IMG/VR virus record: IMGVR_UViG_3300022929_002041
Coordinates: 1-57,959 of that record
Source: a virus
Length of the DNA stretch: 57,959 bases
Reading direction: 5' to 3' (one strand)
The notes under the pieces: generated by a model
Told to the model about the DNA's origin: nothing
Database searches by the model: none
The model's input: the letters and a program-made list of their open reading frames with translations, nothing else
Shown here: positions 45,237 to 50,280 of the stretch, piece after piece
How positions within the stretch are numbered: position 1 is the first letter of the stretch
Layout of the letters: each line of letters starts with the position of its first letter
Translations under genes and position numbers: made by a program

Positions 45237-46999
45237 TCAATTTAAAACATGTAACTCTCAGAAACTTTTTAAGTGTGGGGTCAGTTACACAAGCAATTGA
45301 CTTGCAGAATGAAGAACTAACACTGATTTTAGGTGACAACTTAGACTTAGGTGGAGACGGTGCTAGAAATGGTACTGGTAAGACTACTATTATACAAGCA
45401 ATCAGTTATGCATTGTATGGTGTTCCACTTAACAATATCAAACAGAATAATTTAATCAATAGAACTAACGGCAAAGGCATGATGGTCACATTAGACTTTG
45501 AAGCCAATGGCGTTGAGTATCGTATTGAACGTGGTCGTAAGCCTCACGGCATGAAGTTCTTTATTAACGGAACAGAAGAAGAAGACAACGAAGCCCAAGG
45601 CGAAAATAAAGAAACACAACAAGTTATTGAAGACATCGTAGGCATGTCTTCAGTGATGTTTAGAAACATCGTTGCACTTAATACATACAGTCAACCATTC
45701 TTAAGCATGACACAAGGACAGCAACGTGATATCATCGAACAGTTGTTGGGTATAACTTTGCTATCAGAGAAAGCAGAAAAGATTAAAGTTATTATAAAGA
45801 ATAACAAAGAAGAAATTCAACAAGAAGAATTTAAAGTTCAAGCCGTTGAAGAGGCAAACAAACGAATAGAAGAACAAATCAACAGTCTTAAACAAAGAGA
45901 AAGACTATGGACAGCAAAGATTAATGAAGATATTAATACTTTAAAAGAGCAGATTGAGACTTTAGAAAAACTGGATATTGATGCCGAATTACTTGGACAT
46001 AAACAACTTGCTGTCTATAATGCATTAGTGAAGGATCATGCAGATATTGACAAATTATTGTTAAGAACACAATCTGATATAGACAGAGAAACTAAATCAA
46101 TATCCAAATATGAAAGAGAATTAAACATCTTAAAACAGAACAAATGTCATACTTGCGGACAAGATATATGTGATGATACTCATACAAAAATTCTGTCAGA
46201 AAAAGAAGAAAGCCTTAATGAATCTACAAAACATGCAGAAGAACTAGCAGAGGTGTATGTAGAGTTAGAAAAAGAAAAACATTCTTTGTTTGACATAGGT
46301 GAAAAGCCTGTTGTTTTTTATAGTTCTGAAGAAGAGGCTATTGAACACAAAAACAAAATTAAAGATTTATCAGCACAAGTTGAACGTAAAGAACAAGAAG
46401 AAAATCCATATACGGATCAAATCTCTGAAATGGAGTCTAGTGCATTACAAGAAGTTAACTTTGATAAGGTTAATGAATTATCTCGTATAGGAGATCATCA
46501 GAAGTTCTTGTTAGACCTATTAACAAGCAAAGATTCATTTGTACGTAAAAAGATTATTGATCAAAACTTGTCATACTTAAACTCACGTTTGACAAGTTAC
46601 TTAGACAAGATGGGTCTACCACATCAAGTTGTATTCCAAAATGATTTATCTGTAGAAATTACAGAGTTGGGTAGAGAGTTAGACTTTGATAACTTGTCTA
46701 GGGGAGAACGTAACAGACTGATTTTAGGATTGTCATTTGCATTCAGAGATGTTTGGGAGAACTTATACTTCCCAATCAACACATTGTTTATTGATGAGTT
46801 AATCGATTCAGGTCTTGACACAATCGGTGTTGAGAATGCTATGGCTATTCTTAAAGATATGACACGTAGACGTAACAAGTCTGTTTGGTTAGTATCACAC
46901 AGAGAAGAATTAGCAGGAAGAGTTGCTAGTGTATTACAAGTTATTAAAGAGAACGGCTTTACTACATACAACTCGACAAGGGAGTTGGAGGAGTTGTGA
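45233..46999 (+). CDS. 46: Recombination endonuclease subunit gp46 (Rad50/SbcC-type ATPase)
   Basis: The 588-residue protein has a Walker A motif GARNGTGKTT at residues 43-52. A long coiled coil follows, broken at its centre by the zinc-hook motif CHTCGQDIC (about residue 304), then a second coil. The ABC signature is LSRGERNRLILGLS and the Walker B segment LFIDELIDSGLD. A typical SMC-like D-loop and the His of LVSHREEL follow. It is close in length to T4 gp46 (560). It partners with gp47 in end resection. The last four bases (GTGA) overlap the start of a radical SAM gene, which is an unusual operon partner. Confidence 0.95.
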   Translation: MINLKHVTLRNFLSVGSVTQAIDLQNEELTLILGDNLDLGGDGARNGTGKTTIIQAISYALYGVPLNNIKQNNLINRTNGKGMMVTLDFEANGVEYRIERGRKPHGMKFFINGTEEEDNEAQGENKETQQVIEDIVGMSSVMFRNIVALNTYSQPFLSMTQGQQRDIIEQLLGITLLSEKAEKIKVIIKNNKEEIQQEEFKVQAVEEANKRIEEQINSLKQRERLWTAKINEDINTLKEQIETLEKLDIDAELLGHKQLAVYNALVKDHADIDKLLLRTQSDIDRETKSISKYERELNILKQNKCHTCGQDICDDTHTKILSEKEESLNESTKHAEELAEVYVELEKEKHSLFDIGEKPVVFYSSEEEAIEHKNKIKDLSAQVERKEQEENPYTDQISEMESSALQEVNFDKVNELSRIGDHQKFLLDLLTSKDSFVRKKIIDQNLSYLNSRLTSYLDKMGLPHQVVFQNDLSVEITELGRELDFDNLSRGERNRLILGLSFAFRDVWENLYFPINTLFIDELIDSGLDTIGVENAMAILKDMTRRRNKSVWLVSHREELAGRVASVLQVIKENGFTTYNSTRELEEL

Positions 47000-48012
47000 G
47001 TCTAGCCCTGTGGCACTGGCATATTGAAATTAGCAGTAAGTGTACATTAAAGTGTCCTCGTTGCCCTAGACAAGAAGTTCCTGACACATTAGTCAGTACT
47101 GAACTCAAATTAGATTTTTTTAAACAAAACTTCCCTGCGTTCTTTATATTAGAACATGTAGAGAAACTAACGTTCTGTGGTGACGATGGCGATCCTATCT
47201 ATGCACATGACTTCTTAGAAGTCATCCAGTATTTCAAATCAATTAAGCCTAGTATAGCAATCATTATCGTCACTAACGGATCATATAAAAATGAAGACTG
47301 GTGGACGAGACTAGCAGAATTACTAGACGAACAAGATCAAATACACTTTAGTATAGATGGCTGGGACCATGAGAGTAATAATCTCTATCGAATCAATTCT
47401 AATTGGTCTAGTATCATTACAGGCGTCTCTATCATCAATGATAAGTCTAATTGTTATACAGTATGGGACGCAATAGGCTTTAAGTTTAACGAAGATAAGA
47501 TTGGCGACATGCAGAATTATGCTAGAGACTTAGGTTTTGATGCATTTCAATTAACACGTAGCACTAAGTTCGGTAAGATATACGAAGATTCTTATGGGAA
47601 AGAAGATGCTTTACAACCACGTGATGATCTGTTATCATCTAGTCATAGATTTGAAAGAGAAGTCTTTAAGTTTACAGATAAAACAATTAAAGAACCTTGG
47701 ATGAAGACAAACATTAAGTTGTATGATGAATCTAAGTTAGTAGGAAATGAACGACCTCTATGTCATATCGGCAATAAAGGTAGTTACATTAATGCAAGAG
47801 GAGAGTTTTATCCATGTTGTTGGGTTGCTACAAGATATGGACACAACAATAAATGGAATGAAATTGGCAAGAAATATAATCTACATGAATTGAGATTACC
47901 CAAAATTGTAAAAGATAAATTTTGGGAAGCCGACTTTATACATGACTCTTACGAGTGTCAAACAAAATGTGCCCATCATAGGGTAGATAAAAATTATGCC
48001 ACCGAGTGGTAA
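46996..48012 (+). CDS. Radical SAM/SPASM-type protein coupled to gp46
   Basis: The 338-residue product begins with GTG overlapping the gp46 stop (GTGA). Its radical SAM motif CTLKCPRCPRQ has Cys16, 20 and 23. The C-terminal part has RPLCHIGNKGSYINARGEF, then YPCCWVATRYG and ECQTKCAHH, the layout of a SPASM-type auxiliary cluster. So this protein has N-terminal core and C-terminal extra cysteines, the reverse of the four proteins in the left operon. Proteins of this kind occur near replication genes in T4-like marine phages. The substrate is unknown; peptide or protein modification is the usual SPASM role. Confidence 0.85.
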   Translation: MSLALWHWHIEISSKCTLKCPRCPRQEVPDTLVSTELKLDFFKQNFPAFFILEHVEKLTFCGDDGDPIYAHDFLEVIQYFKSIKPSIAIIIVTNGSYKNEDWWTRLAELLDEQDQIHFSIDGWDHESNNLYRINSNWSSIITGVSIINDKSNCYTVWDAIGFKFNEDKIGDMQNYARDLGFDAFQLTRSTKFGKIYEDSYGKEDALQPRDDLLSSSHRFEREVFKFTDKTIKEPWMKTNIKLYDESKLVGNERPLCHIGNKGSYINARGEFYPCCWVATRYGHNNKWNEIGKKYNLHELRLPKIVKDKFWEADFIHDSYECQTKCAHHRVDKNYATEW

Positions 48013-48029
48013 GGAGATAACTACATATA

Positions 48030-48617
48030 ATGCCATCACCATCTAAGAACAAAGGATCAGGATTTGAACGAGAAGTTGCAAAATTTCTCAGTGAAACTTA
48101 TGAAGAAAGTTTCATACGTGCTCCTGGCTCTGGTGCTTATGTAGGTGGCAAAAATCAAAATCGTACAGAGATTTTGCATGAAGGACAAATCAGAAGTTTT
48201 AAAGGCGACATTGTTCCCGGAGAAAGTTTTCACAAGTTAAATGTAGAATGTAAGTTCTACGCAGATTTCCCTTTTCATCAACTTCTTTCTGGTTCATGCA
48301 GACAACTAGAAGAATGGCTCGACCAGTTAATGGACGTGCATGATGAAGGGGACTTTGACGTTCTTTTTATGAAGTTTAATCGTAAAGGACGTTTTGTATG
48401 TGTACCAAGTAAATACACATTCGTAAGTGATCAATTCATATATTACACATCGGACAAACACAGTGACTGGGTAATATTTGGATGGGATCACTTTTTTAAA
48501 TTCAATAAAGATATATTCAAAGCATACGCAGGCGACACAGAGACCAACTCAGAACCCACCGATGACACCAAGTCAGAACTAAAACTAAACACAACAACAA
48601 CTACAGTAGACTTTTAA
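48030..48617 (+). CDS. PD-(D/E)XK nuclease, Holliday junction resolvase-like
   Basis: The 195-residue product shows KGSGFEREVAKFL (N-terminal Glu), then FIRAPGSGAYVGG, IRSFKGDIV (Asp) and LNVECKFYADF (E-x-K). This is the core of archaeal Hjc-like resolvases and related PD-(D/E)XK nucleases. It could process branched DNA made by the gp46/47 pathway just upstream, as endonuclease VII does in T4. The last 30 residues are a low-complexity Thr/Ser/Asp tail. An AAGGAG ribosome binding site lies about 11 nt before the ATG, 18 nt after the radical SAM stop. A simple repair endonuclease is the alternative. Confidence 0.7.
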   Translation: MPSPSKNKGSGFEREVAKFLSETYEESFIRAPGSGAYVGGKNQNRTEILHEGQIRSFKGDIVPGESFHKLNVECKFYADFPFHQLLSGSCRQLEEWLDQLMDVHDEGDFDVLFMKFNRKGRFVCVPSKYTFVSDQFIYYTSDKHSDWVIFGWDHFFKFNKDIFKAYAGDTETNSEPTDDTKSELKLNTTTTTVDF

Positions 48618-48620
48618 AAT

Positions 48621-49050
48621 TTAGTATGGTCGTAATTTGTACTCGACCCTCCTCGAGGATGCAGTAACCCTGCTGACGGATTTGGAGTAGTGTCTTACAG
48701 ACATATAAACCGACAAGGCAATCGTTATGGTAGCGAACCTTGAATGAGTTCATATCTACTTTGATTTGATGATATGAAACATGCGTTGCTGAGAGGTCAT
48801 GCTTATTAGTATGATTGGCTCAACTACAGCCCAGTAAACATTACAGAGCAACCGGTTGCAATTGATTATAGTAACGTAATCGATTGGGGATAATCAACAT
48901 GGATGACAGGGGGTAATGACCTGAACCGTGGTAGTGTTTGATAGCACTACCATGGCTTCTAAAAGGTAATAAGACTTTAAACAATTACCTTATAAAATAA
49001 TCGATTAACCGTTTTAAATAAGAAATTACGAATGAACGAAGTGAATGAGT
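48621..49050 (+). ncRNA. Candidate structured non-coding RNA
   Basis: This gene-free stretch holds an unusual density of strong hairpins. They are GGTCG/CGACC (48628-48648); an 8-bp stem TTCATATC/GATATGAA (48749-48778); an 11-bp stem CAATTGATTAT/GTAATCGATTG with a 6-nt loop (48859-48886); an 11-bp stem CCGTGGTAGTG/CACTACCATGG with an 8-nt loop (48926-48955); and an 8-bp stem AAGGTAAT/ATTACCTT (48963-48991). The palindrome GCAACCGGTTGC is at 48848-48859, and GTTGCT near 48784 could pair with AGCAAC near 48848. No ORF of size and no tRNA, tmRNA or RNase P signature is seen. The strand is assumed from the upstream plus-strand operon; the stems are symmetric, so the minus strand is possible. Confidence 0.5.
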
Positions 49051-49054
49051 AATT

Positions 49055-49073
49055 GGGTCTTCAAAGAAGACCC
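49055..49073. terminator. Bidirectional terminator-like hairpin
   Basis: GGGTCTTC, AAA, GAAGACCC forms a perfect 8-bp stem with a 3-nt loop. It lies between the plus-strand RNA region and the end of the converging minus-strand gp51-like gene, where a terminator is expected. The flanking T-runs are short on both sides. Confidence 0.55.
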
Positions 49074-49091
49074 TTAAGAATGCTCTAGTGT

Positions 49092-49322
49092 TTAGAAGAA
49101 TGGCATTTGAGTTTTCTTAGTAGTTTCTAAGTGTTCCTCAATTAATTTGTTTATGGCTTTGCGTTCCGATAAGGACATGTTAAGGACATCTTCATATGAG
49201 GCACCACCACGCATATACCAAGCCAAAGTCAATGCGTTTGACTTTAAGCCCTGAGTATATTCTTCATATTTTTGTATTAACTCCCTTATCCCTTCAGGGT
49301 CGAGTGAAAGGAGTCTTAGACG
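49092..49322 (-). CDS. 51: gp51-like frame, expressed as -1 frameshift extension of gp26
   Basis: The frame encodes 76 residues after the slip site: RLRLLSLDPEGIRELIQKYE, then a block with ALTLAWYMRGGASYEDVLNM, and an end at TTKKTQMPFF. The pattern matches the short gp51-type (hub assembly) proteins next to gp26 in marine T4-like phages. No ATG, GTG or TTG lies between the last in-frame TGA upstream and residue 31, and the frame passes straight through the end of gp26. The simplest reading is that it is made only as a gp26-gp51 fusion of about 362 residues through a -1 shift at UUUUUUC (49328-49322). A rare ATT or ATA start is the alternative. In lambda-like phages a similar fusion makes the tail assembly chaperone. 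Confidence 0.7.
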   Translation of the reverse strand, partial: RLRLLSLDPEGIRELIQKYEEYTQGLKSNALTLAWYMRGGASYEDVLNMSLSERKAINKLIEEHLETTKKTQMPFF

Positions 49323-49328
49323 AAAAAA
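49280..49328 (-). promoter_or_regulatory. Predicted programmed -1 ribosomal frameshift signal
   Basis: In gp26 reading frame the codons GAT TTT TTC GTC TAA contain the slippery heptamer U UUU UUC (49328-49322). A 7-nt spacer GUCUAAG follows. Then ACUCCUUU (49314-49307) pairs with AAGGGAGU (49287-49280), an 8-bp stem with one G-U pair, whose loop contains a CCC/GGG mini-hairpin. Both tRNAs can re-pair in the -1 frame, which is the gp51-like frame. Heptamer, spacer and stem all match the known type of signal. Confidence 0.7.
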
Positions 49329-50176
49329 TCCGATGCATTCAATGTGAATGGTTGCTGATATTCATGTCCACATTCTTCTTTTGCTGGATCATCTGCACCT
49401 GCTGTGCATACAATAGTTAGAGGTTTAATTGTTGATTTCTCTCTAAGTTGTGTGTTATGATCTCTTATAGTTTCATAAGTTTTTGTATCGGCATTCTTTA
49501 GAAAATCATGTATATGATCGGTATCGGTTACTTCTCCTTCCGGAGTAACAATTTTTGTGATTGTTTGGGCTAAAATCTCCATGGTGAGTACTGTGATATC
49601 TTTTAATGCTTCAGCACTTACTAAAGTACGTTCTTGTTGATCTTCAATAGCGGATAAGTTTTTGTATTTTGCTTGAATCTCAAACTGTTTTAACCCTGCT
49701 TCATTCATTTCTTTATATTTTAAAGGTGCAAAATAAATTTCTAAATCATTGATTCTTAAAGGAGTTTTGTAATCACCTGCACCTAATGATTGTAATAGAA
49801 CTTGCAGATTGATAGCATATGTTCCTTGTTCTCCGCATTTTTCGCATTGAGACTCTACATCGATTGTTTCTTGTCCACCTGCGGCTTTGATAGAAATTAA
49901 TACTGTATCTAAATCAGTGCTTAATAGTGCCCAAGGATTCTTAATTGCCGGTACACAACTTTTAATAATCTCTACCATGGCTGTACCATTAAATAAGGCA
50001 TCTGGAGTTTTTGTCGTTATCTCATCAATTGCTGTCATAGGATAGACAGGCAATTCTTTGTTTTCAGGCCATTCAATGTCTTCTGGTGCGTAATTATCTC
50101 CACCTGACGGTAAAGTTATATGTACAGCAGGTCTACGAAAAAACTGTCGTAGCGGATTATTTTCATTTATTGTCAT
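49316..50176 (-). CDS. 26: Baseplate hub protein gp26
   Basis: The 286-residue product has FFRRPAVHITLPSGGDNYAP, PVYPMTAIDEITTKTPDALF, then VEIIKSCVPAIKNPWALLST and LDTVLISIKAAGG, which is the T4-type gp26 (baseplate hub) pattern. A Cys pair CEKCGEQG near residue 135, with further Cys near the end (VCTAGADD, EECGHEY), could bind zinc. T4 gp26 is shorter (208 residues). The stop codon lies two codons after a slippery UUUUUUC, and the -1 frame continues into the gp51-like sequence. The gene is divergent from the tape-measure-like gene, and each has a late box in the shared gap. Confidence 0.8.
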   Translation of the reverse strand: MTINENNPLRQFFRRPAVHITLPSGGDNYAPEDIEWPENKELPVYPMTAIDEITTKTPDALFNGTAMVEIIKSCVPAIKNPWALLSTDLDTVLISIKAAGGQETIDVESQCEKCGEQGTYAINLQVLLQSLGAGDYKTPLRINDLEIYFAPLKYKEMNEAGLKQFEIQAKYKNLSAIEDQQERTLVSAEALKDITVLTMEILAQTITKIVTPEGEVTDTDHIHDFLKNADTKTYETIRDHNTQLREKSTIKPLTIVCTAGADDPAKEECGHEYQQPFTLNASDFFV

Positions 50177-50213
50177 ATATGTTCCCCATAATAAAATACG
50201 GTATTTTAAAAAA

Positions 50214-50220
50214 CTAAATA
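50214..50220 (+). promoter_or_regulatory. Late promoter box (CTAAATA), plus strand
   Basis: CTAAATACTAG points toward the tape-measure-like gene, leaving a leader of about 55 nt. It faces the minus-strand box at 50230-50236 with only 9 nt between. Confidence 0.55.
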
Positions 50221-50229
50221 CTAGTGATA

Positions 50230-50236
50230 TATTTAG
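50230..50236 (-). promoter_or_regulatory. Late promoter box (CTAAATA), minus strand, for gp26
   Basis: On the minus strand CTAAATATATC points toward gp26 and gives a leader of about 50 nt. Together with the plus-strand box it forms a dyad CTAAATA-N9-TATTTAG. Confidence 0.55.
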
Positions 50237-50280
50237 TATTCCAAAACCATGCTAAATTAAAACTTATAGGATGACACTAG

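Follow-up and report, generated by a model that had tools for sequence, protein, structure and literature searches.

In this work, we used sequence analysis and comparison among relatives to study the 3′ end of a gp26-like gene in a 57,959-nt virus sequence (IMG/VR record IMGVR_UViG_3300022929_002041, analysed over its whole length and called the window below). The gene ends in a −1 slip signal that is conserved in its relatives and is followed by an extension under selection in the −1 frame; these three points are established from the sequence and the comparison. The reading that the gene yields two forms of a tail assembly chaperone, a short one and, by −1 frameshifting, a long one, as in lambda G/GT, is very probably correct, and it is strongly supported by its fit to the conserved phase of the heptamer, the position of the stop, the −1 frame, the downstream stem and the scarcity of start codons (Table 1).

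Slippage itself, its efficiency and the chaperone role are what we infer. In the mechanism we propose, most ribosomes would reach the zero-frame stop and yield the short chaperone, TAC-N, of 286 aa, while a minority would pause at the downstream stem with tRNA-Phe pairs on U_UUU_UUC. These paused ribosomes would slip back one base, bypass the stop and append a 76-residue helical domain, giving TAC-NC. By analogy with lambda gpG/gpGT, TAC-N and TAC-NC together would cover the tape measure protein and bring in the subunits of the tail tube.

Table 1. Features of the chaperone locus and its surroundings, in window coordinates
Feature	Position	Strand	Basis or remark
Candidate new structured RNA	48618..49091, core 48705..48889	+ favoured	covariation
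−1 extension, FF + 76 codons + TAA, predicted C-terminal domain of TAC-NC, gp51-like	49092..49328	−	
Predicted stimulatory stem-loop, arms 49315..49307 and 49287..49279	49279..49315	−	fold, covariation
gp26-like gene, zero frame, predicted short chaperone TAC-N	49316..50176	−	286 aa + stop
Zero-frame stop TAA, one sense codon past the heptamer	49316..49318	−	same spacing in 55/55 + 40/40 alleles
Slippery heptamer T TTT TTC (U_UUU_UUC), in phase	49322..49328	−	sequence; identical in 55/55 + 40/40 alleles
Intergenic region separating the chaperone gene from the divergent tape-measure-like gene	50177..50280	.	sequence
Divergent tape-measure-like gene, 1167 aa	50281..53784	+	PHROGs profile matches

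Slip site, stop and downstream stem

The gp26-like ORF ends in GAT TTT TTC GTC TAA and its protein in ...NASDFFV*. A sequence-only reading of the window had placed a U UUU UUC slip site at this end, and the heptamer indeed lies in the X XXY YYZ phase of −1 frameshift signals, GA[T TTT TTC], with the single sense codon GTC between it and TAA. The same reading had suggested aligning the junction across relatives, and this alignment bears it out on two counts, with heptamer and stop spacing kept in 95/95 distinct alleles from uncultured relatives and the pairing of the stem kept through compensatory changes. The alleles come from two sets. A scan of IMG/VR with gp26 returned 26 loci, in all 26 of which TTT TTC is separated from TAA by a single sense codon, and a profile scan, with 247 confirmed relatives, contributed the best 80, often from the same contigs; merging identical junctions left 55 distinct alleles from 84 loci, and TTTTTTC followed by exactly one sense codon and a stop is present in each of the 55 examined. 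The second set was found through the neighbouring RNA instead of gp26 (80 loci scanned, 68 with a chaperone match, less 20 already counted and 8 duplicates), and the same arrangement of heptamer, single sense codon and stop recurs in all 40 of its distinct alleles. Because the alleles share kinship, these counts are not counts of independent events. As a rough control, Phe-Phe is written TTT TTC in 17/129 cases elsewhere in the open frames of the same loci. The final Phe-Phe itself is retained in 24/24 aligned gp26-like proteins and in 41/42 of a second set, whose one exception is truncated by its coordinates.

Downstream structure in −1 frameshift signals begins about 5 to 8 nt past the heptamer, according to a passage of PMC4066793, and the covarying stem of this clade lies within that range. 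In the window, the fold has a 6-nt spacer, a closing G-U pair and 8 further pairs (−13.1 kcal/mol), so that the 7-nt spacer and 8-bp stem described earlier return as a spacer of 6 to 7 nt and a stem of 8 to 9 bp. Compared to dinucleotide shuffles, the window's own stem is unremarkable (z −1.35; 22/200 shuffles fold equally well), and the case therefore rests on the relatives. Across 47 distinct sequences, (i) the 7 core pairs are formed in 93.6% of cells; (ii) double-change cells in these pairs number 24, compared to 6.8 in shuffles; and (iii) sliding the stem partner brings pairing to 59% or less. In addition, the minimum free energy is lower than the synonymous-codon shuffle average in 47/47 alleles (mean z −2.68). 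Two of five covariation measures are less clear, as 36 and 33 of 500 shuffles do as well, and RNAalifold returned no consensus structure for the 47-row junction alignment. A first, longer candidate structure with an inner helix was rejected, with 78.7% of its cells paired compared to 93.6% for the 7-pair core.

The −1 extension and competing origins for it

The −1 frame, which ends in TAA at 49094..49092, is open for 78 codons in 54/55 alleles—the remaining one, L127, ends with its sequence and was excluded from the selection and folding tests—and in 40/40 of the RNA-found alleles. Over the 54 alleles, pN/pS, calculated with relatedness ignored, is 0.36 in the −1 frame, whereas the other two frames give 1.03 and 1.65. 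The result extends to the part of the extension that precedes the window's first usual start (0.49 compared to 0.89 and 1.43) and to extension codons 3 to 16 (0.49 compared to 0.77 and 1.57), again over 54 alleles. The extension is thus a long conserved reading frame, and purifying selection acts on it in the −1 frame only.

These data also bear on whether gp51 is a separate protein, started within or just past gp26 from an unusual codon or by coupled re-initiation. The annotation of phage genomes leans that way, with a separate short ORF marked at the extension in 14/17 jumbo-phage records examined (none is marked in MIJ3 and RaK2, and the LR756511 record carries no annotation at all), and T4 records list an internal product, 26′, of gene 26. 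As the sequence-only reading had pointed out, the 76-codon frame of the window has no usual start before residue 31: the first ATG, GTG or TTG is a TTG 96 nt past the heptamer, and initiation there would drop 30 of the 76 residues, a region that is under selection in the relatives. In 42/55 alleles, usual starts are absent upstream and appear downstream only from 39 nt onwards, and the −1 frame of MIJ3 has no ATG, GTG or TTG anywhere. A −1-frame stop abuts the heptamer in 22/55 alleles, and the frame therefore opens exactly at the heptamer there, as it also does in Munch and Hallingskeid; near-cognate starts upstream are absent from 27/55 alleles, although the window's own allele has some. On the other side, 12/55 alleles have a usual start 9 to 18 nt downstream of the heptamer and 2/55 have one upstream, so that coupled or internal initiation could also operate in these relatives. 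As a general account, a separately started gp51 leaves the conserved heptamer unexplained, and we regard it as very unlikely.

Slippage could instead occur during transcription, with RNA polymerase, not the ribosome, producing the −1 product on the run of six T. Slippage on homopolymers is generally known, but six T followed by C, as found in 95/95 alleles, is short for a polymerase, and the codon phase, the distance to the stop and the covarying stem 6 to 7 nt downstream suit a ribosomal signal; we regard this origin, too, as very unlikely. Least credible of all is an assembly error or a decayed gene, since the single indel that could break an intact gene into this layout in one contig would have to recur in 55 + 40 distinct alleles and in isolated phage genomes, with the extension kept under selection.

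Protein families and the wider T4-like group

The sequence-only reading likened the locus to lambda-like tail chaperone pairs and took gp26/gp51 as the T4-like equivalent. The analogy fits at the level of families: the gp26-like protein matches Pfam PF12322, T4_baseplate (E 7.5e-12), and phrog_150, baseplate hub (E 3.4e-14), and T4 gp26 and T4 gp51 both match PF12322, which makes its TAC-N domain homologous to known members. The T4-like equivalence holds for gp26 through PF12322, whereas the extension can be connected to the C-terminal end of T4 gp51 only by way of the cyanophage family. Compared directly with T4 gp51 by hhalign, the extension gives weak matches (P 0.048 and 0.0076, probabilities 1% and 5%); its profile matches cyanophage extensions at 77.9%, and these in turn match T4 gp51 at 61% over the whole and 86.8% to the C-terminus. 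The gp26-like profile behaves similarly, with a weak direct match to T4 gp26 (9.5%) and 86.5% to the cyanophage set. RaK2-type and Phosso/Atu_ph07 extension sets match this clade at 98.7% and 99.6%, but the cyanophage set at only 14.7% and 0.7%. With the C-terminal piece alone, tblastn at E 1 returned only three records, of Atu_ph07 and Phosso, and a gp26 search of genome contigs returned no relative. Structure models of the two parts reached mean pLDDT values of 86.5 and 83.0 (pTM 0.78 and 0.55), and neither part matched the PDB at E 0.001.

Searched with the fused protein, phage records gave 62 matches, and in 36 the match covers 80% or more of the protein; of the 60 listed, 57 are records longer than 200 kb. 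We examined 17 of the 62 at the junction: an in-phase TTTTTTC is present in 15/17, XacN1 has TTTTTTT, and LR756511 has none. Six named T4-like phages divide into P-SSM2, S-PM2 and KVP40, with TTTTTTC, HTVC008M and phiM12, with TTTTTTT, and T4, in which no heptamer was found. A cyanophage-type set, built from the best 80 of 595 loci of a scan with the gp26 proteins of these phages and from three named phages (83 loci, 81 distinct alleles, with L188 and L207 truncated by the sequence end), has TTTTTTC in 78/81 alleles; of the remaining three, one has TTTTTTT, RHph_I1_9 has TTTTTTG and phiA8-29 has none. The gp26 loci of cyanophages, pelagiphages, KVP40 and phiM12 are thus like the one described here in combining a PF12322 protein, an in-phase T6N heptamer and a −1 extension. 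The cyanophage-type extensions differ in being shorter (59 to 71 codons where complete) and in often having an ATG close by, at +15 nt in 38/80 alleles (both for the best 80 of 595 and the three named phages).

Downstream structure varies over this wider group. Longer stems occur in Atu_ph07 (z −4.61) and Phosso (z −1.66), and folding is also good in P-SSM2 (z −3.85), phiM12 (−3.22) and MIJ3 (−2.03). Within 55 nt of the heptamer, we found no outstanding structure in nine records, RaK2, BF, Kaldavass, XbC2, CBB, Munch, Hallingskeid, GAP32 and Phosso (z −0.1 to +1.7), and little in SCTP-2, XaC1, XacN1, HTVC008M, KVP40 and PBECO4 (z −0.06 to −0.92).

T4 has two PF12322 genes, 26 and 51, placed divergently; since both products belong to this family, T4 seems to encode the short and the long chaperone form by two genes. 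The distribution of heptamers and extensions suggests that frameshifting at U_UUU_UUC is usual across the wider T4-like group, with T4 and its two genes as the exception.

A study by Vladimirov, Gautam and Davidson from 2022 (Virology 566:9-15), whose title states that T4-like chaperones point to a mechanism other than frameshifting, reportedly found frameshifting conserved in several T4-like groups and separate genes 26 and 51 in T4. The T4-like chaperone genes of that study belong to the same protein family, gp26/gp51, as the gene described here. In passages that cite Vladimirov et al. 2022, poly-T slip sites are treated as a known signal in T4-like TAC-N genes (PMC12846349), and some T4-like phages are said to use two genes (PMC10885494). 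The sequence-only reading, which knew of no such signal for gp26/gp51, is out of date on this point, at least going by that passage of PMC12846349: because poly-T slip signals in T4-like TAC-N genes are discussed in print, the kind of signal is already known, and this clade adds a new case. A literature search, with most subscription journals outside its coverage, yielded nothing published on such a signal in this clade or in these jumbo phages. In lambda, G/GT consists of a short protein and a minor −1 extension near the 3′ end that acts with the tape measure protein, and tail chaperone frameshifting is conserved widely, T4 excepted, according to passages of PMC5009743; the gene described here would resemble G/GT in its short form and in the −1 extension near the 3′ end. 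A conserved −1 frameshift at a T-rich site is likewise described, in a passage of PMC12846349, for the TAC locus of phage Adele and of the Vandenendeviridae/Andersonviridae, where the downstream ORF had earlier been annotated as a hypothetical gene. As given there, that locus differs in its GTTTTT motif, where ours has U_UUU_UUC, and in belonging to other phage families.

Neighbouring genes and a candidate convergent structured RNA

A TAC gene usually adjoins the tape measure gene, upstream of it on the same strand. The chaperone gene described here also adjoins a tape-measure-like gene, but the two are divergently oriented, which sets the locus apart from lambda G/GT. The sequence-only reading had called this neighbour tape-measure-like, and its product does match phrog_794 and phrog_167, tail length tape measure (E 1.3e-14 and 2.6e-8), though among ten hits that include unknown-function families and lysins and partly through apparent low-complexity sequence; Pfam gave no match. 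Homologues of it lie beside gp26 on the opposite strand in 13/15 uncultured loci and in 0/11 named-phage loci tested. Between the two genes, CTAAATA occurs on both strands at 50214..50236, a motif that may, by its resemblance to such elements, mark divergent late promoters.

On the other side of the chaperone gene, the product of 48030..48617 (+) matches a RusA-like resolvase in PHROGs (E 1.9e-21) and the phage endonuclease family PDDEXK_15 in Pfam (E 3.5e-26). A radical SAM protein, barely past the cut-off (PF04055, E 4e-7), is encoded at 46996..48012 (+), flanked by a gp46/SbcC-like gene and a nuclease gene.

The 474-nt gap past the −1 frame is conserved DNA that holds a structured RNA, probably convergent with the chaperone gene. 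Its alignment folds at −141.6 kcal/mol, compared to −50.9 (sd 4.0) for 20 column shuffles, and within the core 27/37 predicted pairs show compensatory change (MAFFT alignment, 39 sequences). A DNA pattern derived from the clade fetched 80 loci and has at least 119 stretches in IMG/VR; an RNA model run on the 57 loci unseen before matched 57/57 at E 1.8e-25 or better. In the model-fitted alignment of 44 distinct rows, 98.1% of cells are paired, and 302 cells carry double changes compared to 83 in shuffles. The fold energies of the gap are near-equal on the two strands (−144.6 and −145.5). The + strand, opposite the chaperone gene, is nevertheless favoured and probably encodes the RNA, because covarying pairs have 139 G-U to 33 A-C cells on that strand and 100 to 102 on the other; the model-fitted alignment gives 52 to 3.

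Searches beyond the clade gave little. Rfam returned no family at its cut-off for the gap RNA, and a permissive search of 48580..49110 returned four matches, all far below cut-offs. The exact clade-derived pattern is absent from 84,980 bacterial and archaeal species genomes (one each), and among 18 named phage records there was only a weak hit, in SCTP-2 (E 0.067).

Within the clade, the RNA lies opposite the −1 extension in 70/80 of the pattern-found loci, and 9 others have less than 900 nt of sequence on that side. One locus, L259, is the only one of the 80 with room (970 nt) in which no chaperone extension was detected alongside. Right past the −1 frame stop, at 49055..49073, lies a perfect inverted repeat, GGGTCTTC-AAA-GAAGACCC, which covaries in relatives. 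This repeat could be the shared boundary of two convergent transcripts. We consider it very unlikely that the chaperone gene and the convergent RNA form one unit in which the RNA sets the amounts of TAC-N and TAC-NC, by antisense contact or by blocking transcription; were this true, the locus would be an RNA-tuned tail-assembly switch.

These results assign a tail chaperone predicted to be made by frameshifting to a large clade of uncultured phages, with a covarying stem that is well defined and suitable for laboratory tests. They assign one also to jumbo-phage records in which the second domain is annotated as a separate short gene (14/17 records) or not at all.
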